A stretch of 34,305 bases of DNA from positions 1 to 34,305 of the IMG/VR virus record IMGVR_UViG_3300042332_000757; one strand, given 5' to 3'. The position numbers and the translations under genes were made by a program. The notes beneath the pieces are model-generated. The model saw only the letters and a list, made by a program, of their open reading frames with translations, did not search any database and was not told where the DNA came from. Source of the DNA: a virus. Below are positions 6,331-20,180 of this stretch, one piece after another; positions within the stretch are counted from its first letter, which is position 1; the number at the start of each line of letters is the position of its first letter.

Positions 6331-6548
6331 TTACCCCTCCATTCTTGCATCGCCGATACCGCAAACGCTGCGCTGGCCCAAAATAGGACGAGCAATACAA
6401 TGGCCTCCCATAGCTCTTCAGCGAAGTAAGCGATGGCAAGTCCGTCAAAGACGGCGAGAGTAGCAAAGCCCCAGAGGTACGGGACGGCTTTGTTGGAGTT
6501 GTCGGGTTCAATCTTCATATATGCTTGGTAGTGTTTGATTTTATTCAT
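6327..6548 (-). CDS. Small two-helix membrane protein
   Basis: From MNKIKHYQAYMKIEPDN this is 73 residues. Two hydrophobic segments (about 22-37 and 42-60, L-W-E-A-I-V-L-L-V-L-F-W-A-S-A-A-F-A) suggest a helical hairpin in the membrane. A basic W-R-G-K tail follows. The ATG lies in an ATGAATAA overlap with the stop of the helicase C-terminal half, so the two genes are coupled. Longer upstream starts would run through the helicase gene and are rejected. Function unknown. Confidence 0.6.
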   Translation of the reverse strand: MNKIKHYQAYMKIEPDNSNKAVPYLWGFATLAVFDGLAIAYFAEELWEAIVLLVLFWASAAFAVSAMQEWRGK

Positions 6549-7125
6549 TATGGAACGTAGCGGTTTTGCCTGTAAAGCGCAGATTTGCACTGACGCCGCA
6601 CGGGCCGTTTCGTTGGATGGGTATGCCAACCTCGCGGAACTCTGCGTCATCGGAAAGCTTCACAACCATCACGGCTGTAGCGTCTTGCCCGATTGCGCGA
6701 CTTTCGCGAGCTTTACCCTGCTCATTTAATTGCGTAATCGAGATGACTAAGCAACCTAATTCGATGCCAAGTAAGCGCAGGCTCCGGCTCACCTCAGCCA
6801 CTTCACGCTCACGGCTGCTGTCCTTGCCCAGGTCGCAGCGTACAAGCTGAATGTAGTCTACGAACAGCACGCCTAGACCATCCGGGCTCTTCGCCATAGC
6901 CCGTGCAGTGGCGCAAATGTTGGCTATGTCGTACAGGTCGTCGCGCACCACCAGACGGCTGTTATTGAGCTTCTGGATGGCGCTGTGGACGCCTCTGATG
7001 TCGCGCTCATGCTTTGCTCCTTCAGCGAGCGCACGCAGGCTGACATTGCCGAGCCGGGCGACAAGCCGGTCGATGATCTGGTTAGCTGGCATCTCCAGCG
7101 AGATGACGAGTATTCCTTTGTTCAT
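6541..7125 (-). CDS. DnaB-family replicative helicase, C-terminal half (split gene)
   Basis: This 194-residue protein starts MNKGILVISLEMPANQI, exactly where an intact DnaB reads on after the Walker A helix. It carries motif H1a (V-I-S-L-E-M-P, with the catalytic Glu), Walker B (L-F-V-D-Y-I-Q-L-V), motif H3 with the Gln sensor (I-S-I-T-Q-L-N-E), motif H4 (A-R-E-S-R-A-I-G-Q-D-A-T) and a C-terminal R-N-G-P-C-G arginine-finger region. It lacks a P-loop, which lies in the gene at 9385..10092, 2.3 kb upstream in transcription. The two must assemble in trans for ATPase activity if this is the phage's replicative helicase. The start overlaps the methyltransferase stop by 44 nt. Confidence 0.88.
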   Translation of the reverse strand: MNKGILVISLEMPANQIIDRLVARLGNVSLRALAEGAKHERDIRGVHSAIQKLNNSRLVVRDDLYDIANICATARAMAKSPDGLGVLFVDYIQLVRCDLGKDSSREREVAEVSRSLRLLGIELGCLVISITQLNEQGKARESRAIGQDATAVMVVKLSDDAEFREVGIPIQRNGPCGVSANLRFTGKTATFHNE

Positions 7126-8068
7126 TTAGTAATGTGGTAAAAGCTAATGCTGCCGTCGCTGGCACTACACCGTTTCCGAGGAGACGCAACTCGTCTGTGC
7201 GATTGTCACAGGTGACGTACAACTCGGCATCGTCCAGCCTATCGGTAATCCCATCAACGTCTCCACCCAACGTGGATTCAGTTTGCCCGTTGTGTTGTGT
7301 TGAGCTTGCTCGCCCAACCTGTGCCTCCCACTGTCCTCTTGTTTGTCCTGTGCCATTGAGCACCTTGGTGTTGCCCACGACTCTAGGCGGCTCCCATGCG
7401 TGCTGTGGTTGTCCTGGGCGGCTGGGCCAGAGATCGCAAATACGGCTCTTGCTAGTTGATCCGTCCTGTTGCGTTGCGATCCGTCTGGGTTGAGTCCAGT
7501 CTGCGCCATTCCACTCGAGTCCTTCCAGTCGCGTGCTGATGCAGTTGGCCAAGATGAACACGCGCTTCCGTTGGTGTGGCGCACCGCATTCAGCCGCCGA
7601 GAATATGCCCCACGACACTTTGTAACCCATTTCTTCCAGATCGCTGATAACAGTGGAGAGTCCCAGCGTAATATGTCCTTCGACGTTTTCAAATAGGCAA
7701 ACTCTTGGCTTGAGAATAGCGATGCCTTTAGCAATGTGTGGCCACAAGTGTCGTTCGTCTTCTGTCCCGAGTCGCTTTCCTGCTGCGCTGAATGGCTGGC
7801 AGGGGTAGCCTCCAGTGAGGATGTCCACTCGATCTCGAAAGCTTTCCCAAGGGAAGGTTTTAAGATCCGTCCAAACAGGTGCTGCGTCCATGAGTCCCGC
7901 TTCCATTTTTGCAACCAAGTTCGCAATGGCGAAAGCTTCGATCTCACAAAGAGCGACTGAGCGCAAAGCTGGGAGGACTCGTTTAAGTCCAAGCTCAATC
8001 CCTCCGTACCCTGCACAGAGGCCAACGTGTGTAATTGTTTCGGTAGTATCCACATTAGCGCGTTCCAT
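7082..8068 (-). CDS. dcm: Cytosine-C5 DNA methyltransferase
   Basis: This 328-residue protein has the full motif order of a C5 methyltransferase: motif I G-L-C-A-G-Y-G-G-I-E (SAM binding, about 16-25), motif IV G-G-Y-P-C-Q-P-F-S with catalytic Cys90, motif VI E-N-V-E (127-130), motif VIII Q-R-K-R-V-F (166-171), a variable target-recognition region (about 180-300) and motif X L-L-G-N-G-V-V-P. It transfers methyl from SAM to cytosine C5 within a specific site, probably protecting phage DNA from host restriction. No endonuclease partner is adjacent. The gene lies between the two helicase halves; its 3' end overlaps the C half by 44 nt. The ATG at 8068 is preferred to in-frame upstream codons within the previous gene. 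Confidence 0.93.
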   Translation of the reverse strand: MERANVDTTETITHVGLCAGYGGIELGLKRVLPALRSVALCEIEAFAIANLVAKMEAGLMDAAPVWTDLKTFPWESFRDRVDILTGGYPCQPFSAAGKRLGTEDERHLWPHIAKGIAILKPRVCLFENVEGHITLGLSTVISDLEEMGYKVSWGIFSAAECGAPHQRKRVFILANCISTRLEGLEWNGADWTQPRRIATQQDGSTSKSRICDLWPSRPGQPQHAWEPPRVVGNTKVLNGTGQTRGQWEAQVGRASSTQHNGQTESTLGGDVDGITDRLDDAELYVTCDNRTDELRLLGNGVVPATAALAFTTLLNEQRNTRHLAGDAS

Positions 8069-8297
8069 TGCCTGGCCTTGCAGACGTGTGCGAGTGCTGT
8101 CCCGTGTACGGCTCAAGCAGATACTTCACCTCGATCAGATCCGTCGATTGGTTCTCGGGCAGAAGCATAAGCGACTCCATCTTCGAGCCTAGTGCGTCTT
8201 TCGGGCCGATACAGATGACGTCCTGCGTCTTCTTTGGCCGTGGCAGCTCCACGTTTTGCAGCACGTTAGTGCGCCGGATGAGTACCCAGTCGCTCAT
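8055..8297 (-). CDS. Hypothetical protein between nuclease and methyltransferase
   Basis: This 80-residue protein starts MSDWVLIRRTNVLQNVELPR. The start is fixed by an ATGA overlap with the nuclease stop, and its 3' end overlaps the methyltransferase start by 14 nt. Visible blocks are V-E-L-P-R-P-K-K-T-Q-D-V-I-C-I-G and S-T-D-L-I-E-V-K-Y. The first looks like a small beta-barrel or KOW-like strand pattern, but this is only an impression. Function unknown. Confidence 0.6.
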   Translation of the reverse strand: MSDWVLIRRTNVLQNVELPRPKKTQDVICIGPKDALGSKMESLMLLPENQSTDLIEVKYLLEPYTGQHSHTSARPGNGTR

Positions 8298-9073
8298 GCT
8301 TCCTCCCATCTTCTTGGCAACATCACGCGCATCGTTGGTGGACCGGGCCACACGTCTTGATCGAGGCACAACTTGTACTGCGCCAGCGTCACGTCGAGTT
8401 GTTGGTTGGCGATGTCGATAAGTTCCGTGGATGCTTTCACCCACTGGCTCAAGTGAGGTGCTTGCATATCGACGACTAGGAAGTAGAAGTCGATGTCCTC
8501 TTGGCCGGTGATCTGCTCAAGGCCATAGGTGTACCAAGCAGCCTGCTTATCGTATCCAAAGCCAAAGAATTTGTGGTCGAATTTCGAGAAGTCGCTGGTC
8601 GTCTTTAAATCGACAATGGCTGGCCTACCCTTGATCTCTGTGATCATGTCAGGGCGCCCCTTGCATTGCACACCGTCACGCTCCCAGAACAGCGACGCTT
8701 CAATGATCTTGGCTGCTGTCACCATCTCAAGCAACGGCTCCACTGCCGCACAAGCGCCCTCAACACGCGCCCCTTCGTCTTCGTTAAGGATGACCTTGCC
8801 AATGTTCTCTTGGCAAAAGTTCTCCCACGTTAGCTTGCCCTCTTTGGTGCGACGATCACACGCTGGAGCAATAGCGTACTCACAGCGCCCCTCAAGAGCT
8901 AGGCTGTGGACAATCGTGCCCAGTTCCATCTCACGACTGGGTTTCCAGTCCTGCTTTTCCTTCCACTTGTAGTACGCCGGGCAGACTGCGAAGGCGTCGA
9001 GGCTATGCTTCGATAAACCGTGCATGGCACGGTAAGTTGTCATCTCTAAGTTTTGTAGTAGTTCTGTTTTCAT
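8294..9073 (-). CDS. RecE/Cas4-like PD-(D/E)XK exonuclease
   Basis: This 259-residue protein resembles the putative exodeoxyribonuclease 8 C-terminal family. Visible active-site elements are H56 (T-I-V-H-S-L-A-L-E), E126 (I-I-E-A-S-L), D142 (K-G-R-P-D), D155-x-K157 (I-V-D-L-K-T-T) and Q177 (Y-D-K-Q-A-A-W-Y). These enzymes degrade one strand of duplex DNA for single-strand annealing recombination or DNA processing. The SSB-like protein (11434..12075) is a likely partner; no annealase is recognised nearby. The start at 9073 follows the previous stop by 4 nt. An internal ATG at codon 11, preceded by a TACTACAAAACTT word, is an alternative start. Confidence 0.85.
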   Translation of the reverse strand: MKTELLQNLEMTTYRAMHGLSKHSLDAFAVCPAYYKWKEKQDWKPSREMELGTIVHSLALEGRCEYAIAPACDRRTKEGKLTWENFCQENIGKVILNEDEGARVEGACAAVEPLLEMVTAAKIIEASLFWERDGVQCKGRPDMITEIKGRPAIVDLKTTSDFSKFDHKFFGFGYDKQAAWYTYGLEQITGQEDIDFYFLVVDMQAPHLSQWVKASTELIDIANQQLDVTLAQYKLCLDQDVWPGPPTMRVMLPRRWEEA

Positions 9074-9077
9074 TTTG

Positions 9078-9392
9078 TTATGGGTTAATTTCAAGCGCCC
9101 CGCAGCCGACAATCTTACCGGCTCCGTCACGAATGAGTTTTGTTGGACTAGCCAAATCTGTTCTGTTGGGCAGTGCAGTACGCACATAGCCAGGCACAAT
9201 GTAAAGGATTCCTTTTACAGGGTCAGGCAGGTTGCTCACCTTGGCGTCTTTGCAGCACATGATGGGTACACCATCAACGTCTGCCACCTTGCTCAGGTGT
9301 GAGTGTACTTTCACCGAGTAACCGCTCGGCTCGATCACGCCGTAACCAGTGATGGTAATGTCGTGAGGTGTAAGGTTTACGAGTTTATTCAT
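9078..9392 (-). CDS. NLTPH-family uncharacterised protein
   Basis: This 104-residue protein starts MNKLVNLTPHDITITGYGV. It has the pattern of a widespread small phage/actinobacterial family: N-L-T-P-H-x-I near the N-terminus, a P-S-G turn, L-P-D-P, Y-I-V-P and a C-terminal R-D-x-x-G-x-I-V-G-C block. The family has no established function that I know. Its ATG sits in an ATGAATAA overlap with the stop of the helicase N half, so it is the first gene of the four-gene block that separates the helicase halves. Its first codons (M-N-K-L-V) resemble those of the C half (M-N-K-G-I-L-V). Confidence 0.75.
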   Translation of the reverse strand: MNKLVNLTPHDITITGYGVIEPSGYSVKVHSHLSKVADVDGVPIMCCKDAKVSNLPDPVKGILYIVPGYVRTALPNRTDLASPTKLIRDGAGKIVGCGALEINP

Positions 9393-10092
9393 TTATTAAG
9401 TTTGCAATGATGTTGAGTGCCAGCATGGTTTTGCCAGATTTGGTTTCGCCACCGATGACAACAAAGTCACCAAAGCGTATCGGGCAGATGTTGTCGATAG
9501 CAGAGTAGCCTGTTTTTATCCGCATGGACTCATCGTCGCCACTCTCGTAGCGGTTGAGCGCATTAATGAGCAGCGCCTTAGTGTCCATCACCTTTGGCGG
9601 AGCAAGTTCACGGGACAGCCCCTCGACCTTCATCACAACGTCACTTAGCAACTCCGGCGTCTGCCTGGTTGAGTCACCGATTGATAGAAGCGTCTCGTAA
9701 GCGACATGCTGCAAGGTGCGCCGTTTGGCCGTGTTCTTGACGATATCTACGAGGTCGCCTATCGCACCGGCGATTGGCATGAGCGTGTAGAGGTCGCTGA
9801 GTTGGTGAAACTCGGTCGCTGGTAGCGTCTCGCGACACTTCTCAAAGATCACACGGATCTCGGACGACGCATTGCGGGACTGCTGCTGCAAGATGATCTC
9901 GCACACCCGGTGACTGAGCGGGTCGAAGATGTCGCCCACCTTGAAGTTCTTCTCGCTTATGTGGTGCAGGAACACCTCAGGATGATTCAGCGCAATCGAC
10001 GCTATGCCGCGCTCGGCCTCTAGCGCAGTTGGCACCACCGTGTCAGGCGGTAGCTCCACCGGCCTGCGCCTACCAGCTTTCTTGTGTTCCAT
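9385..10092 (-). CDS. DnaB-family replicative helicase, N-terminal half (split gene)
   Basis: This 235-residue protein has a DnaB N-terminal helical domain (about 15-150, starting P-T-A-L-E-A-E-R-G-I-A-S), a linker helix, and the start of the RecA-fold core: K-T-G-Y-S-A-I-D, R-F-G-D-F-V-V-I-G-G and Walker A G-E-T-K-S-G-K-T at about 215-222. It stops 12 residues later (L-A-L-N-I-I-A-N-L-I-N-E), where DnaB would continue to motif H1a. Those remaining motifs are in 6541..7125. On its own it could bind a phosphate tail but lacks Walker B and the catalytic Glu. No intein or homing-endonuclease motif follows. The start overlaps the previous gene by 23 nt. Confidence 0.88.
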   Translation of the reverse strand: MEHKKAGRRRPVELPPDTVVPTALEAERGIASIALNHPEVFLHHISEKNFKVGDIFDPLSHRVCEIILQQQSRNASSEIRVIFEKCRETLPATEFHQLSDLYTLMPIAGAIGDLVDIVKNTAKRRTLQHVAYETLLSIGDSTRQTPELLSDVVMKVEGLSRELAPPKVMDTKALLINALNRYESGDDESMRIKTGYSAIDNICPIRFGDFVVIGGETKSGKTMLALNIIANLINE

Positions 10093-13549: not shown

Positions 13550-16500
13550 TTATTTAGATCCAAATGCTTTTCGGACTGCTGCTCGTTTAGCTTCTATTCC
13601 AGAAGCATATACGCCTTCAAGTTGCTTTCTGTCGTTGTAAAGCCTAAAGTTGTTTTTGCCAGTCTCCACAATCCTGTAGCCAGTGAAGTTGTCAGTTGTG
13701 ACATTTCCACTCGGCAACTGCTGCTCATCGGAATTGATCTCGTTGAACGGTAGGCTCGCGCCAGATTGCGGGTACACACGCAACCAAGACTTGATGCGAG
13801 GCAGGGATTGCTGATCTAATGGGCGCAACAACTCAATAGCTGCTTGTGGGTCGATCATCGCGTTGACCAACATGCCATGCGCCTTCTTTGCGACATCACC
13901 GCGCCACATGCCGCGAAACAAATCCGTCATGCCAGACATTGGCCCGGTCAACTTCTTGATATCAGCGGGAACAACCGCTCCAGCAAGCCTGCCAAGTACA
14001 CCAAGTGTGTTTTCGGCCAAGCTAATATCGAGGTCACCTGCAAGCATTTGGTTGAGGCTTGTGACTGATTGGCCACCGGCAGCACGTTTACGGCGAGCAT
14101 ACAGCTCAATCTGCCTGCGAGCTTTGTCTAAGGCTTGAAGCTCTTGTGAGCCTTGTCCAAACAATACCTCAACTGCTGACCTTTGCGCCCCTTCGCCTAG
14201 GTACTTGTTAAGCTTATCAAACGAAAGCGAAAGGTCCGCTTTAGAGATCGGCTTGATGACATTCTCTGTTGACGCCACTTCACCAGTCCTACGGAGCACT
14301 GTGTTGAGGTAGTTCTTTAGGGCGTTCTTAAGCCCTTCGATTGCATCTCCGCTTGGATCTTGCGCTGCTCTAGCAACTAGCTCTTCCATGTAAACCACAG
14401 CGTTGTCGCTGTTAAGCACCTTGCCTATCGCTGACTCTGGAGCTGCCCCAATGTACTGAGCAGCCTGACTAGCCTGCACGGCCTTCTTCTCGTCTTGAAG
14501 CCTTATCTGAGCATCTGCTTTAGACTCGCTTTTTACTCTTAACGATTCAACCCTTGCCTCTTTAATCTTTTCAACTTCTAACTTCTTTGTTTCGATTGCT
14601 TTTTCTTTTGCTTTAGCAAGATTAAGTTCTTGAGCAGACTTTTGCTTTTCAGCAGATGCTAAAGCGGAAAGTTCTGGAGCAATCTTTGAATCGTAAACCT
14701 CTGGAAAAACATCGAGTAGCGTCCTGCCGCTTTTGCCGTTTACCCAATTTTGAATTGCCTTTGCAGTTGGATTTGCTCGCACAGAATCAAGCATTTGACC
14801 GTAAATCCAGTCTCCAACTGCCTTAATAGCATCTGGACGTTCATCGACAGCCAAACGAAGCTGTTGCAATGCCTCTTTTGAAGTGGCATATGCCTCAACT
14901 GTTTGAGATGGATACACGCCACCTTTGAGCACTCGTCCCGAAACGTCGTTAAGGTATTTGTCTGCGTATATCTTGTATTTTGCGTTTGCAATTTTAACGT
15001 CAGCAGACAATTCACCAAGAGCATCAAGGTCAGACTGAATGCCGTCCTTTAACTTTTTAAGCAACCTGACAGTGTTTGGGTTGCCTCCTGGGCCAGACTG
15101 TTCAGATATTGCGCCAGAAACAGACTGCAACACACTGATCAACTCTGACGCAGGACGCTCTTCGCCTTTGTATGCCGAAATAAAGTCCTTAACCTTTGAT
15201 GGCAGATTGTCCATCTTGGGTACTTCTGACTTGATTGCATCAGCGGCGGCACGGCCCTGTTCAAAGGTTGTGGTTATTCCCGCTGTGTCTAGCTCTTTGT
15301 ATGGAGCTTGCGCTTCAGCCTTTGCAAGCTGTTGCTCAGATTGAAGAACCTTAAACACTGCATCTCCAGCATTTGTTTGATCTCCACGCCGCATGGAGAT
15401 TTCACCCTGCGCACGCTCTAGTTCATTGGCTATTCTTGCGTTTGCCAATTCAACACTAAGCACACCTTCATCAACACGCTTTGCTTGTTCGAGCGCATTT
15501 TTATTTGCTCGATCCATGATGCTCTTCGATACAGCATCACCTTGTTCCTCAAGCCCTTTAGCCACTTCTTGCGCCCTAACAAGAAGCTCTTTGTTTTGCA
15601 TTGCAAAGATATCTTGCGAATATTTCGGCGAAACAGCGGACGGCTCAAGCGTAACGTCAACCTTCTTGGCTAAAGCTTCTGCGCTAGCTTGATCAATGTT
15701 TCTAAGTGTAGCCTCGCGGTTGCGTAGAGCCTGCTGAAGGCCAAGGAATCCTTCGTCACCCACAACGTCACCACTTAGCGGCCGCACCCCTTCGCCAGTA
15801 ACTTCACCGGCTCTTGCAAGCTTGGCGACAGCAGCGTCCTTGTCGCTGACAAACCTGTCCATGACATTGCCAGCAGCCTGGCGAGCAGCAATCTCCTGCC
15901 TAGCCTTTGGATCAAACAACCTTTGGCCAAACTTAGTTGGCTCAAGCACAGCGCCAGTGAGCGTGTCGAACGCCAGTCGCTCAAGGTCGGGCAACTCGCC
16001 TTGTGCTGCACTGCCAGCAATGGATACGCCTGCGCCTACGCCTGCGCCGATGCCCGCGCTTTTGGCTAATGCTTTACCGACTTGGATGTCACCGGCTAGT
16101 GCTGCGCCCATCTTTGACACAGGAACCTTGGCTACCATAAACTGAGGCACAACTTCACCTGCAAGTCTTGAGTAACGAGTTCCTGCCGATGCAGTGTCGA
16201 ACGCAGCTTGAGCACGCTCCTCAGATGACATTGGCATCATGCTTTCCTGCAAAGCTGAGCCAGCAGCAGATCCTGCCATGCCGCCTGCAAACGTGCCCGC
16301 CAGCGGAATAGGAGCCATTGAGCCAATTGCGCCGCCGCCAATTGCGCCTAACGTTGGGATGATTGCCCGTGTTGCGCCCCGGTATGCAGCACCAAGTGCG
16401 CTAGGTGCCATCTCTTTTTGATATTCTCTCCAAGCTGTCGAAAACTCGTCCGTGGCGTCATCTGCCGGCGTATACGTTGGCGAGATCAATCCTTCAGCTA

Positions 16501-16669
16501 CAGCAGTGTCGAGTATTTCTTTGGGCGTGTCGCCAAGCTGTTTTGGGTTTAAGTATCCAGTAACATCTGTAAACCTAGACTCAAAACTAGACGCAGGAGG
16601 ACGTTCTGGCTCCGTTTGTTGCAAAAGCGAGATTAACTGCTCGTCACTTAACTGTGAAATGTCAGCCAT
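13550..16669 (-). CDS. Large internal virion / DNA-ejection-like protein
   Basis: This 1039-residue protein starts MADISQLSDEQLISLLQQTE. Glycine-zipper hydrophobic stretches (about 91-140, G-A-I-G-G-G-A-I-G-S-M-A-P; and about 195-225, G-I-G-A-G-V-G-A-G-V) suit membrane insertion. Long helical regions follow, with a strong coiled coil near 665-740 (K-A-K-E-K-A-I-E-T-K-K-L-E-V). The C-terminus has a short beta domain (F-T-G-Y-R-I-V-E-T-G). Size, architecture and its place after smaller Gln-rich virion proteins match podovirus internal core proteins that form the ejection conduit. No lytic transglycosylase motif is seen. Not a tape measure by context, but that remains possible. Confidence 0.65.
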   Translation of the reverse strand: MADISQLSDEQLISLLQQTEPERPPASSFESRFTDVTGYLNPKQLGDTPKEILDTAVAEGLISPTYTPADDATDEFSTAWREYQKEMAPSALGAAYRGATRAIIPTLGAIGGGAIGSMAPIPLAGTFAGGMAGSAAGSALQESMMPMSSEERAQAAFDTASAGTRYSRLAGEVVPQFMVAKVPVSKMGAALAGDIQVGKALAKSAGIGAGVGAGVSIAGSAAQGELPDLERLAFDTLTGAVLEPTKFGQRLFDPKARQEIAARQAAGNVMDRFVSDKDAAVAKLARAGEVTGEGVRPLSGDVVGDEGFLGLQQALRNREATLRNIDQASAEALAKKVDVTLEPSAVSPKYSQDIFAMQNKELLVRAQEVAKGLEEQGDAVSKSIMDRANKNALEQAKRVDEGVLSVELANARIANELERAQGEISMRRGDQTNAGDAVFKVLQSEQQLAKAEAQAPYKELDTAGITTTFEQGRAAADAIKSEVPKMDNLPSKVKDFISAYKGEERPASELISVLQSVSGAISEQSGPGGNPNTVRLLKKLKDGIQSDLDALGELSADVKIANAKYKIYADKYLNDVSGRVLKGGVYPSQTVEAYATSKEALQQLRLAVDERPDAIKAVGDWIYGQMLDSVRANPTAKAIQNWVNGKSGRTLLDVFPEVYDSKIAPELSALASAEKQKSAQELNLAKAKEKAIETKKLEVEKIKEARVESLRVKSESKADAQIRLQDEKKAVQASQAAQYIGAAPESAIGKVLNSDNAVVYMEELVARAAQDPSGDAIEGLKNALKNYLNTVLRRTGEVASTENVIKPISKADLSLSFDKLNKYLGEGAQRSAVEVLFGQGSQELQALDKARRQIELYARRKRAAGGQSVTSLNQMLAGDLDISLAENTLGVLGRLAGAVVPADIKKLTGPMSGMTDLFRGMWRGDVAKKAHGMLVNAMIDPQAAIELLRPLDQQSLPRIKSWLRVYPQSGASLPFNEINSDEQQLPSGNVTTDNFTGYRIVETGKNNFRLYNDRKQLEGVYASGIEAKRAAVRKAFGSK

Positions 16670-16670
16670 A

Positions 16671-17636
16671 TTACTTAATAAGCCCGCGCCGTTTTGCGTC
16701 CATTAAAAGTTGCTCTCTGCTAAAGCCGCCTGGGTTTTGTCTGCTGATAACAGGAATAGCAAGAGATGGATTATAAGGCTTTATTGAGTTAACATCCAAT
16801 CCAAGCGACTCTGCAATTTCAGGGCTAGTTTGTTTTGCAATAGAGTTAAACTGAGATCTTGATCTGTTCACCATATAATCGTGAACTGTTTGAACTTGTT
16901 CTTTGTACTTTTTAACTCCAGCCTCAATTTTTGGAAAAACTGATTTTCCGCTTTTAGCTAAATTTGTTATATCAAGCACTGAATCATCAAGCGTTGGCAA
17001 AACACGCTTTGCTTCACCTTCTGATAGTGCATCTGGATTATCAGACAAAGAGGCATTGTAAATTTTACCTTGAGAAGCAAGTAGCCTTGCAAGATCGGCA
17101 AAATAAACGTCACGCTTGTCTTTATTTTTAGGCGCGTTTTCAAGTTTATAATCAATTAAGTCAACTATAGACTTTGAGTCTGAAATTGATCTAAACCTTC
17201 CAATGCTGGCAGATTGAATTTTTTCAGTAATTGGCTTAAGTAATGGATTTTTACTTAAAAAAGAATCAATGTTTGGTGTATCCTTTGGAATAAAATCTAT
17301 CTCAGACTCAAGCGACTTACGCAAATCATCGCGTTGATCCTTTGGCGCAGACAGCACAATTGAGTTAATCTGAGATGTCAGCATTCTTCTAGCCTCTTGC
17401 GCCTTTGCTGCCTTCCCAGCAAACTCATCGAACGGGAACGACACGGGTGCAGCCTGCTGCTGTGGCTGCGCAGGCGTAGGCTCCATGCTCAACACGGACA
17501 CAGTGCCAGGGCCACCGGCAGGCTGTTCTTGCGGTGGAGTCTGCTGAAGGAACTGCGTGTCAGACGCCATCTGTCGCGCCTGTTTGGATGGCTTTTCTGG
17601 GAAAAGCTCTAGAAAGTAATCAGATAGTGATGCCAT
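16671..17636 (-). CDS. Putative internal virion protein
   Basis: This 321-residue protein starts MASLSDYFLELFPEKPSKQA. It has a Pro/Gln-rich N-terminal linker (about 30-65) and a mostly helical, Ser/Lys-rich remainder ending R-E-Q-L-L-M-D-A-K-R-R-G-L-I-K. It lies 1 nt upstream of the large internal protein gene and follows another Met/Gln-rich virion-like gene, so it is probably part of the same ejection set. The 3' two-thirds is noticeably AT-richer than neighbouring genes. No domain is recognised. Confidence 0.6.
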   Translation of the reverse strand: MASLSDYFLELFPEKPSKQARQMASDTQFLQQTPPQEQPAGGPGTVSVLSMEPTPAQPQQQAAPVSFPFDEFAGKAAKAQEARRMLTSQINSIVLSAPKDQRDDLRKSLESEIDFIPKDTPNIDSFLSKNPLLKPITEKIQSASIGRFRSISDSKSIVDLIDYKLENAPKNKDKRDVYFADLARLLASQGKIYNASLSDNPDALSEGEAKRVLPTLDDSVLDITNLAKSGKSVFPKIEAGVKKYKEQVQTVHDYMVNRSRSQFNSIAKQTSPEIAESLGLDVNSIKPYNPSLAIPVISRQNPGGFSREQLLMDAKRRGLIK

Positions 17637-17647
17637 ACGTTGTTGGA

Positions 17648-18244
17648 CTACTGTGAAAACATGCCCCTGAATGACCCTAGACTTGATCTAAATTCATCGA
17701 TCTTGGCATTTACGCCTTTGTATCTCTCTTGCTCAGCTAAACGTTGTTTCCTCTGCTCCTCAAGCTGCGCATACTGTGGGCCAACGCCAACCATCGCACG
17801 ATTCATTGCTCCACCCTGTTCCGCCTCAATCTGCTGCATCTTGTGGTACTGCCCGATAGCCGGAGGCACGATCATGTTATAGACCATATTCTTCTCCGAC
17901 GGCTTCATGTCAGCAGTCTGCGCAATAAATTGAGAAGCTTGATCCTTGGCGGTAATTACGCCTTCTGGGCCTTGCTTATCTTTAAATAACATGTTCTGAA
18001 CCAAGGAATTCTTAAGCAAGTTCTCGTAAGACTTATTCTGCGACTCAAGTTGCTTGGCCTCTTTCATGTACCCAGCCACCGCTGACGCCGCACTTGTAAT
18101 CCCCTGTGCAATGCCCTGGCCCATTGCCATCATGCCCTGTCCTTCGATTCTGCCTGCGTTAGCATAAGCATCTGCGATTCCCTGCCCCATCATGCTCATC
18201 GCCTGAGGAGCTGGCGTATTATAAAGTTCACGAGGTCTTGCCAT
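17648..18244 (-). CDS. Putative internal virion protein, Met/Gln/Ala-rich
   Basis: This 198-residue protein starts MARPRELYNTPAPQAMSMMG. The first 60 residues are Gly/Met/Ala-rich with M-G-Q-G-I-A repeated twice (M-M-G-Q-G-I-A-D-A, M-G-Q-G-I-A-Q-G), resembling an amphipathic membrane-active segment. The rest is helical and Gln/Glu-rich. It groups with the neighbouring internal proteins by composition. Its start overlaps the YkgJ-like gene stop by 17 nt. Confidence 0.6.
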   Translation of the reverse strand: MARPRELYNTPAPQAMSMMGQGIADAYANAGRIEGQGMMAMGQGIAQGITSAASAVAGYMKEAKQLESQNKSYENLLKNSLVQNMLFKDKQGPEGVITAKDQASQFIAQTADMKPSEKNMVYNMIVPPAIGQYHKMQQIEAEQGGAMNRAMVGVGPQYAQLEEQRKQRLAEQERYKGVNAKIDEFRSSLGSFRGMFSQ

Positions 18245-18518
18245 AAAATTTGGTTCTAGCTTCTAAACAAAGAGTACTGCCCTTCTCGAACCGCTGGCAG
18301 GCTTGCGGTCTATGCTCATAGATTGTACACGAAACTTCCTGCCCAACAATCCCCGAAAGCGCAATACAGCGAGTTCCAACGCACTTAAGCAGTGGCAGAT
18401 CATCGCGGATGTACTCTTTGGGGATGTTAACTGCATCAGATCTATCCTTTCGCAGAATCGGCCAACTGGCCTTGTGGCTGCAACACGCTCCGCACTTTTG
18501 GCAGTCCAGTTCGGACAT
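18228..18518 (-). CDS. YkgJ-like cysteine-cluster protein
   Basis: From MSELDCQKCGACCSHKAS this is 96 residues. The pattern C-Q-K-C-G-A-C-C, then a central C-V-G-T-R-C-I-A-L, C-T-I-Y-E-H-R-P-Q-A-C-Q-R-F-E and a final C matches the YkgJ/zinc-iron-chelating cysteine-cluster family. Members are thought to bind Zn or an Fe-S cluster; the function is unknown. It overlaps the PAPS-reductase-like gene by 77 nt in another frame, suggesting tight co-expression and perhaps metal delivery or modification. An upstream ATG at 18560 is less likely. Confidence 0.8.
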   Translation of the reverse strand: MSELDCQKCGACCSHKASWPILRKDRSDAVNIPKEYIRDDLPLLKCVGTRCIALSGIVGQEVSCTIYEHRPQACQRFEKGSTLCLEARTKFYGKTS

Positions 18519-19284
18519 TGCAGTAGGGGATGACTGGCTCTTCGTGCAAGACAAACTCATGCAAGTTCTCTACGTCAGCGTTTAGCTTTGGACAATGCAC
18601 AAATGCAGATTCTCTACGATCAATACAACGGAAACAGGCATGAACGTAGTCACTGTTCATGTGCTTGTCCGGGCGGGACACAACATCCGTGTCATATCGA
18701 TTCTGGTCGTATTTGACGTTGTTGGATGTGATGTACAGAGAAACATCCTCGTCAGTCCACTCGCGAAGTGGGAACCACATCTCTGTGCCGTTACCCATAA
18801 ACTTCATGTCTACCATCAACGGAACTTTTCCGGTCAGAGGATCTTCATCGCTATTCTTGTGTCCGCAAAACAAAATATCAAAGTCGTTAACAACATTGGC
18901 CTTTGGCCTGTTAAGCCATTCCTTGCCGCACACCCAAGGCCTTGTAAGATCCAGCATTTCAGTGCCGCGCATCACCTTAAAGCAACTTGAGCCAAGTGAG
19001 TAGGTTTCACAGACATCAATGCGATTATTGCCGTGTGTTAGCGCAATAGATGACGGAACCCAGTCGTGGACGGTCAGCTTAAGTTCTTCCTGCACCTCAT
19101 GGTGATGTTTGTACTTGTGTGACAAGAACGGCAGCTTGAAGTGGATTACCTCAATGTCCGGTCTAATTTTCAGGCATAGATCCAACAGCACGGTAGAGTC
19201 CTTGCCGCCGCTCCATAGAACAGCGGGACGCCTAGCGCGTTTAAGTGCCTTATTTATTACATCTATAGCAGTAGTTGTATTCAT
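18442..19284 (-). CDS. PAPS-reductase / ATP-pyrophosphatase-like enzyme
   Basis: This 280-residue protein starts MNTTTAIDVINKALKRARRP. The PP-loop S-G-G-K-D-S-T is at 25-31, followed by D-L-C-L-K-I-R-P-D, a central L-F-C-G-H-K-N-S-D block, W-F-P-L-R-E-W-T-D-E-D-V (typical of CysH/DndC-like enzymes) and a late C-F-R-C-I-D-R-R cysteine pair. Such enzymes adenylate substrates or reduce PAPS; phage copies may serve sulfur metabolism or nucleic-acid modification. No dnd or tRNA-thiolation partners are present. It sits among virion genes, joined by TAATG to the preceding gene and overlapping the YkgJ-like gene by 77 nt. Cargo acquired from elsewhere is likely. Confidence 0.85.
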   Translation of the reverse strand: MNTTTAIDVINKALKRARRPAVLWSGGKDSTVLLDLCLKIRPDIEVIHFKLPFLSHKYKHHHEVQEELKLTVHDWVPSSIALTHGNNRIDVCETYSLGSSCFKVMRGTEMLDLTRPWVCGKEWLNRPKANVVNDFDILFCGHKNSDEDPLTGKVPLMVDMKFMGNGTEMWFPLREWTDEDVSLYITSNNVKYDQNRYDTDVVSRPDKHMNSDYVHACFRCIDRRESAFVHCPKLNADVENLHEFVLHEEPVIPYCNVRTGLPKVRSVLQPQGQLADSAKG

Positions 19285-20180
19285 TAGAAACCAACTGCGG
19301 CAAGCCCACCAATCTTTGCAGCCCCAAGCATTCCAACAGCACCAATTCCAGCGCCGCCTAATGAGCCAAGCATACCTTGACTTCCGGCACTCTTTGCCGC
19401 ATTAGCCTGCGCCTGACCAGCCGCCAACTGCATCTGTGCGTTGTACGCTCCGTAGATCGAGCCCATGCCAGTCTGTGACTCTGGGTTAAAGTACTGCGGG
19501 CCAGCCTGCTGTTGACCCATCATCGCGTTCTGCGCAACTTGACCGCCAAACGAACCAGCGTACATAGGCTGTTGGTAGAATGAGGTCAACGCAGGAGCGG
19601 CCTGCTGTTGGAAGTAACCACCCAATCCCGTACCAAGAGCCACAAGCTGCTGTTCCCGGGCCTGACGAGCGTTGTAGCGGTTCATCACCTCGGCAAGGTT
19701 ACTCTGCCCACCTAGCGACGTTCCCCGAGCTGCATAGCCCGCTCTGGCCTGCTGATCGAGCATACGCTGCTCTTCTGGAGAAAGATTTGTTCCATTAGCC
19801 TGCAATCCGCCGAGCTTCTGCTGGGCGTACTGTTGGAGTGCGCGGTTGATCCCGCCAACACCCTGCACATCCTGAAACGCTTGAACATATTCACCACCAC
19901 GCTGCTGCAAGCCGCGCAATTGCGCTGCCTGCTGACTCTTCATGTAATCCTCTTCTAGCTGCGAGTACGCAGGCTGAAGCTGTTGATACATGCCAATCTG
20001 ACTCTGGGCAGCTTGCCTAGCAATCTGATCCTGTAAGGCCTGATATTTAGGCTGATAGATCTCCTCACTGGCATACACCTGCGGGGCAAGATCAATCTGC
20101 GCCTGCAAAATAGACCGCATCGACTCCTGATAATTAGGAGCTGGTGGTGCTTGTACAACTTGAGTTTTACCTCCGCCCAT
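19284..20180 (-). CDS. Gln/Ala-rich putative internal virion protein
   Basis: This 298-residue protein starts MGGGKTQVVQAPPAPNYQES. The N-terminal 25 residues are Pro-rich, followed by Gln-rich helices (Q-A-L-Q-D-Q-I-A-R-Q-A-A-Q-S-Q). The last 30 residues are a hydrophobic glycine zipper (L-G-S-L-G-G-A-G-I-G-A-V-G-M-L-G). Gln-rich helices with a membrane-active Gly-rich end are typical of podovirus internal or ejected proteins, and the M-G-G-G-K start is common in that class. It follows the small gene at 20167..20565 with a 14-nt overlap. Confidence 0.6.
   Translation of the reverse strand: MGGGKTQVVQAPPAPNYQESMRSILQAQIDLAPQVYASEEIYQPKYQALQDQIARQAAQSQIGMYQQLQPAYSQLEEDYMKSQQAAQLRGLQQRGGEYVQAFQDVQGVGGINRALQQYAQQKLGGLQANGTNLSPEEQRMLDQQARAGYAARGTSLGGQSNLAEVMNRYNARQAREQQLVALGTGLGGYFQQQAAPALTSFYQQPMYAGSFGGQVAQNAMMGQQQAGPQYFNPESQTGMGSIYGAYNAQMQLAAGQAQANAAKSAGSQGMLGSLGGAGIGAVGMLGAAKIGGLAAVGF

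Follow-up and report, generated by a model that had tools for sequence, protein, structure and literature searches.

A pair of genes, encoding a PP-loop enzyme and a small CxxCxxCC protein, is located immediately behind a virion-type protein gene in the 34,305-base IMG/VR virus record analyzed here (hereafter the window). Among relatives, the two genes are paired in most loci, keep their position at the end of the same virion gene, and are swapped there with C-terminal extensions of the virion protein itself; the enzyme keeps an ATP-type loop motif and a set of conserved cysteines. We tentatively propose that the enzyme, together with its putative Fe-S partner where present, would form an exchangeable modification cassette tied to the upstream virion protein, its substrate and chemistry being what we infer from these features. 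Through this exclusive swap, an orphan enzyme pair becomes linked to a single protein. Many uncultured phages carry the pair beside an internal virion protein gene; it mostly receives a sulfate-metabolism label but probably has another role. Among the papers listed on YkgJ, PAPS reductase, cysH, Bcep22, PF03692, and internal virion proteins, no title or abstract opening contains a description of the pair.

Genomic organization of the locus

All genes of the block lie on the minus strand. The most upstream one considered here (19284-20180) encodes a virion-type protein of 298 residues with an MGG start and a glycine-rich hydrophobic C-terminal tail, which does not return any Pfam or PHROG match of its own. 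It is directly followed, with a 1-nt overlap at 19284, by the gene of the PP-loop (N-type ATP pyrophosphatase) enzyme (280 residues, 18442-19284), which is assigned to PF01507 (45.2 bits vs a Pfam gathering cut-off of 22.5). The ensuing partner gene (110 residues, 18228-18560), of the YkgJ type, is assigned to PF03692 (35.9 bits vs a gathering cut-off of 23) and, from its conserved start codon, shares an out-of-frame overlap of 119 nt with the enzyme gene (18442-18560). Both ORFs are therefore borne out where the preliminary description had placed them, and codon-position variability points to the selected frame in each, indicating that both genes are truly coding. The partner overlaps by 17 nt (18228-18244) a gene encoding 198 residues (17648-18244), which occupies, by position only, the slot of the Lessievirus virion-associated genes; its product has no significant blastp match. 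Two further genes of the same block, encoding 321 residues (16671-17636) and, as the last gene, 1039 residues (13550-16669), have no family match. Since the neighbours that return matches encode a peptidase, a metallophosphoesterase, a tail-collar protein, and a virion-structural-like protein, a virion block is a fair reading. The earlier view of a linked, cysteine-rich pair with redox- or metal-type features amid virion genes is supported.

Elsewhere in the window, a DnaB-type helicase looks split into two minus-strand segments (9385-10092 and 6541-7125), the first stopping just after the Walker A region and the second, downstream, corresponding to DnaB_C (108.6 bits). A cytosine methyltransferase (7082-8116), a PD-(D/E)XK protein (8294-9199), and a small gene lie between the two halves. 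The minus-strand segment 24843-25103 encodes a DUF6321 small protein (69 bits), a family for which no paper was found under its name; in the relative L246, the gene after the PP-loop gene resembles, by eye, this small protein.

The PP-loop enzyme

The ATP-type loop of the enzyme reads SGGKDS (residues 25-30), a motif found unchanged in 66 of the 70 alignment rows among the matches listed, whereas the E. coli PAPS reductase aligns SFGIQAAV at this position. Four cysteines, C119, C217, C220, and C231, are kept in the window and in all of the 66 clusters judged among the matches listed, with or without the partner (two clusters cut at contig ends were left out); the late C-x-x-C pair noticed in the preliminary description is present and belongs to these four. 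The AlphaFold model of the enzyme (pLDDT 89.7) aligns with CysD (Z 13.5, rmsd 2.7, 153 aligned residues), FAD synthase (Z 13.4, rmsd 3.1, 157 residues), and TtuA (Z 11.4, rmsd 4.1, 160 residues). With Z scores running from 13.5 down to 11.4, it lies at a similar distance from CysD, FAD synthase, the APS and PAPS reductases, and TtuA, in alignments that barely cover the enzyme past residue ~220. The last residues (262-280) are predicted to be disordered.

The CxxCxxCC partner and the gene overlap

The partner was noticed earlier to hold at least eight cysteines, and indeed eight are invariant across 24 relatives (C20, C23, C26, C27, C65, C78, C88, and C98). Its structure model is unusable (pLDDT 43). 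The start codon of the partner determines the length of the overlap. In the alignment of this region (188 loci reduced to 47 distinct sequences, of which 45 were kept), 40 of 45 sequences have the ATG at 18560, and 8 of 45 the internal ATG at 18518. Moreover, the enzyme histidine codon that creates the 18560 ATG is CAT in 41 of the 41 cases where it is followed by G, as compared with 154 of 290 for the remaining histidine codons that precede a G in these genes; these are related sequences, and the comparison is given with no probability. Given the much stronger conservation of the 18560 ATG and the invariable CAT of this histidine codon, the overlap most likely measures 119 nt. The 77 nt given in the preliminary description would hold if the partner started at the ATG at 18518, which is the less conserved of the two.

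Within the overlap, constraint acts on one frame at a time: that of the enzyme before the DC motif, that of the partner after it. Because constraint switches frame at this motif and the end of the enzyme is predicted to be disordered, the conserved parts of the two proteins abut. The formal overlap consists of an enzyme tail that crosses the partner gene in another frame and of a partner leader that crosses the enzyme gene in the same manner. Among the matches listed, 53 clusters have both genes on the same strand: the enzyme stop lies past the first cysteine of the partner in 44 and just before it in 6, and the remaining 3 exhibit a gap of 423-444 nt, which in L087 houses another virion-type gene. 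In these clusters, the relative frame of the pair is 1 in 24, 2 in 26, and 0 in 3. Two clusters (L345 and L343) and the contig L342 carry the partner on the opposite strand. The idea that the long overlap joins the two genes is hence unsupported, as the pair survives without overlap, in other frames, with an intervening gene, and on opposite strands; variable or absent overlap, opposite strands, and single-frame constraint rule out the overlap as the cause of the linkage.

Linkage of the two genes among relatives

Loci were gathered from separate searches (the best 80 each of 325, 460, 256, and 429 relatives, plus further matches), which yielded at least 412 redundant loci, including three from GTDB and that of the window. 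Both genes occur in at least 362 of them, the enzyme only in at least 48, and the partner only in at least 1. Among the matches listed, the enzyme accompanies the partner in 362 of 363 partner-bearing loci (redundant), the exception, L154, being cut at a contig end. After setting aside hits covering 200 profile positions or fewer, and L256, the 402 enzyme hits kept were grouped into 68 clusters at 90% identity. Contig ends cut 2 of these; in the 66 that can be judged among the matches listed, the partner is nearby in 55 and absent in 11, and profile A4 or PF03692 finds no partner anywhere on the contigs of these 11, which may be partial. The enzyme tree requires 9 changes of partner presence, of which at least 7 are forced by well supported branches; the partner was therefore lost or gained several times. 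The preliminary description held that the pair would be inherited together and named independent occurrence in relatives as evidence to the contrary: the enzyme does occur alone, in the 11 clusters just mentioned, and the partner was never found to do so among the matches listed, so that this contrary evidence is half present. Decay or a sequencing error has split the PP-loop gene of L050 (4929-5845), and likewise that of L138, into two overlapping frames.

Outside virus records, the scan of GTDB reports three loci, with the pair on two MAG contigs (L254 and L255) and neither gene on L256; the two bacterial MAG contigs with the phage pair are probably prophage or contamination. In 59 genomes of one phylum, coordinates read by eye place no PF01507 site within 10 kb of any of the 84 PF03692 sites. 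A phage-like contig in these genomes (G015:C85) carries the pair, its enzyme family member being picked up by profile A3 and not listed by PF01507. Among cultured phages (50,697 records), four PP-loop queries did not return any tblastn match; of the two partner queries, one had no match in these records and the other only a 31% match. One of the records matched, filed under the name of Acinetobacter phage MD-2021a (L422), holds fhuA, guaB, glmM, pdxH, and recJ, so that this part of it resembles bacterial chromosome.

Exchange with C-terminal extensions of the virion protein

The gene of the virion protein directly precedes the enzyme gene in all 68 clusters among the matches listed. The distance from its end to the enzyme gene is -1 to 26 nt in 67 clusters and 91 nt in the remaining one. 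The tail of the protein is glycine-rich and uncharged in 61 of the 68 clusters among the matches listed, a criterion that none of 478 control ORFs from these loci passes; many of the control ORFs are not real genes. Anchoring the comparison on the upstream protein (best 80 of 352 relatives) left 54 loci after removal of duplicates and of loci with 700 nt or less downstream. Among these 54, the PP-loop gene follows a protein free of any C-terminal extension in 28; in 25, the protein bears a C-terminal extension and the PP-loop gene is absent; one locus has neither. The extensions are of the Peptidase_S74 type with its SDKR motif in 20 loci and of a CWVAR type in 5. Pfam confirmed the S74 type in 3 of 3 tested; L510 and L516, missed by the pattern, were assigned to it by sequence reading, not by Pfam. 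The CWVAR type, which occupies the same slot in the same virion-protein family (in L459, L465, L471, and L486), returned no Pfam match in three tested. The tails of L463 and L473, which fail the tail criterion, look similar but contain a Gln. In whole-contig searches, the PP-loop gene was absent from 17 of 17 contigs with an extension or with neither, and was found in 6 of 6 positive controls. On the tree, the PP-loop label must have changed at least 9 times.

Three pairs of close relatives delineate the exchanged segment. In L505/L522, L527/L534, and L506/L476, DNA identity stays at 85-91% until 42-112 nt remain of the upstream gene; the two sequences become similar again near the end of the PP-loop gene (one member) or of the extension (the other member). 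Where the partner is present, as in L479 and L470, this return of similarity falls close to the partner's end. These breakpoints therefore define a cassette comprising the tail codons, the enzyme, and the partner where present. The upstream protein of L505 ends with ...GGGLLMGAGLAI, whereas that of L522 continues as ...GGGLLGGAGFAL-SDKREKKDIKP, so that the SDKR of the S74 form marks the point at which the PP-loop form of the virion protein stops. Peptidase_S74 domains cleave themselves off, and would do so near this SDKR point.

Putative function of the pair

In the mechanism that we propose, the pair would provide the enzymatic portion of the cassette exchanged at the 3' end of the gene of a virion protein, possibly of the ejection type. 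The PP-loop protein would bind ATP and adenylate a substrate, its four cysteines holding a metal or Fe-S centre. The CxxCxxCC protein may hold a second Fe-S centre and serve as a redox or cluster partner, presumably useful but dispensable in some phages. The substrate might be, with less certainty, the adjoining virion protein, whose glycine-rich tail moves together with the cassette and ends where other phages have the Peptidase_S74 chaperone domain. An action on the virion protein is the simplest reading because the cassette swaps with a chaperone-type extension and carries the tail of the protein itself. The enzyme probably acts not within the particle but in the infected cell, during the late phase of infection. 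Should the virion protein prove to be its substrate, the maturation of that protein would be of a new kind. A more specific version, in which the pair provides a trans-acting, ATP- and cluster-dependent maturation of the ejection protein that has repeatedly replaced a self-cleaving S74 domain, seems rather unlikely.

Nearly as likely as a modification of the virion protein is that the 3' end of its gene is a recombination hot spot, a cargo slot, and that the pair acts on a host or phage nucleic acid or metabolite, for instance in tRNA thiolation, and is unrelated to the virion protein. Mutual exclusion could then be plain recombination without any shared function, as exchange with unrelated domains (S74, CWVAR) is expected of a hot spot, and among the fold neighbours of the enzyme are TtuA, NcsA, and LarE, sulfur-transferases for tRNA or cofactors that have Fe-S forms. 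However, free cargo should be found elsewhere too, whereas the PP-loop gene follows a single gene type throughout the clusters among the matches listed and is exchanged along with the last codons of the virion gene; Lessievirus, ctyzp037, and phiA008 also have a PP-loop gene in a comparable position.

Readings drawn from the name of the enzyme family fare less well. Viral genes called 'cysH' or 'PAPS reductase' are often presented as belonging to sulfur metabolism, and the preliminary description likewise considered the enzyme PAPS-reductase-like. An auxiliary metabolic gene encoding a cysH-like PAPS/APS reductase that boosts host sulfate assimilation would agree with the PF01507 match and with the partial match to phrog_424 ('phosphoadenosine phosphosulfate reductase'), but the enzyme does not reach the cut-offs of the NCBIfam CysH models TIGR00434 (25.6 bits vs 165.1), TIGR02057 (22.5 vs 254.2), and TIGR02055 (15.0 vs 235.3), nor that of PRK02090 (30.6 bits vs 154). 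Furthermore, ECGxH, the C-terminal catalytic motif of the CysH PAPS/APS reductases, occurs in none of the 68 enzyme clusters among the matches listed (two of them cut at a contig end), SGGKDS is kept, and the linkage with a virion gene is constant. This reading is accordingly very improbable, the reductase activity suggested earlier is unsupported, and 'PAPS reductase' is, judging from these motifs and scores, a poor name for the family. At least the present branch of the enzyme should not be read as sulfate assimilation, because the ATP-type loop is kept, the reductase motif is absent, and the gene resides in a virion operon. DNA modification, such as phosphorothioation by a DndC-like enzyme, has just as slender a chance: DndC is a PP-loop protein with conserved cysteines, yet PADLOC reports BrxP (21.6 bits) and QueC (16.4 bits) and no DndC for the enzyme, no Dnd model for either gene of the pair, and none among the matches listed for ten other proteins of the window (the best 25 of 56 matches in the case of the methyltransferase), the window being a fragment. 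Of the sulfur modification of nucleic acid or virion protein envisaged in the preliminary description, the DNA part thus finds no Dnd model to lean on, and modification of a virion protein is possible and strengthened by the cassette exchange. Lastly, a programmed frameshift yielding a single PP-loop/CxxCxxCC fusion protein would make sense of the long out-of-frame overlaps in 44 of the 53 same-strand clusters among the matches listed, but three relative frames, no fused ORF, opposite strands in 2 clusters, and a conserved partner start codon leave it hardly any credit, and the varying frames and strands refute it as a general mechanism.

Comparison with known systems

The closest arrangement in cultured phages is that of the Burkholderia Lessievirus (Bcep22-like) 'PAPS reductase' genes (JC1 gp65, DC1 gp65, and BcepIL02 gp67), which encode PF01507 PP-loop proteins like that of the window and, as read in their sequences, display a four-cysteine pattern CC...CxxC. 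Their gene order also resembles that of the window: head closure, acetyltransferase, virion-associated protein, PP-loop gene, and virion-associated proteins. A PP-loop gene is found in a like place in ctyzp037 and in the Aeromonas phage phiA008; in the latter (L421, 5001-5687), the gene start may be annotated too late because the tblastn match of JC1 gp65 begins upstream of the annotated hypothetical gene. The JC1 protein is a distant relative of the window enzyme (22.7% identity by blastp, HMM E 8e-11). Unlike the window, the three Lessievirus PP-loop records searched have no PF03692 match, nor does any of the five cultured-phage records with a like arrangement; JC1 gp66 (99 residues), which adjoins the PP-loop gene, was considered as a candidate and is not a CxxCxxCC protein. 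The Lessievirus PP-loop gene has been described as a moron gene for sulfate reduction (PMC9144972). In the Burkholderia phage JC1, the upstream product and two downstream ones are virion proteins, and the PP-loop product is absent from the same list (PMC9144972, Table 6). This absence may not carry over to the family of the window, because the JC1 PP-loop protein is a distant relative and the record of this phage has no PF03692 match.

The CysH PAPS/APS reductases share the fold superfamily of the enzyme (Z 11.7-12.5) but differ from it by their family cut-offs, which it does not reach, by ECGxH, which it lacks, and by the loop, which it keeps intact as SGGKDS. CysD, TtuA/NcsA, and LarE exhibit the same PP-loop fold (Z 9.6-13.5), ~140-160 residues aligning with the enzyme at 12-24% identity. 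The entries of the TtuA/NcsA/LarE group (Z 9.6-11.4) include Fe-S forms; at the sequence level, the enzyme is not a member of CysD or LarE. For the partner, FliB offers a precedent of a PF03692-like cysteine motif with a [4Fe-4S] cluster in an enzyme modifying a filament protein: FliB holds eight cysteines, binds one cluster through a CX4CX3CC motif likened to PF03692 by its authors, and modifies its filament protein (PMC8598068). Both proteins have eight conserved cysteines; FliB, however, is a single-protein methyltransferase for which the account drawn on here mentions no PP-loop partner (PMC8598068), whereas the window combines CxxCxxCC with a separate enzyme. With regard to position, a counterpart of the cassette is the Peptidase_S74 chaperone domain, which fills this very slot in other members of the virion-protein family; it is a domain in cis, whereas the PP-loop enzyme is encoded by a separate gene.
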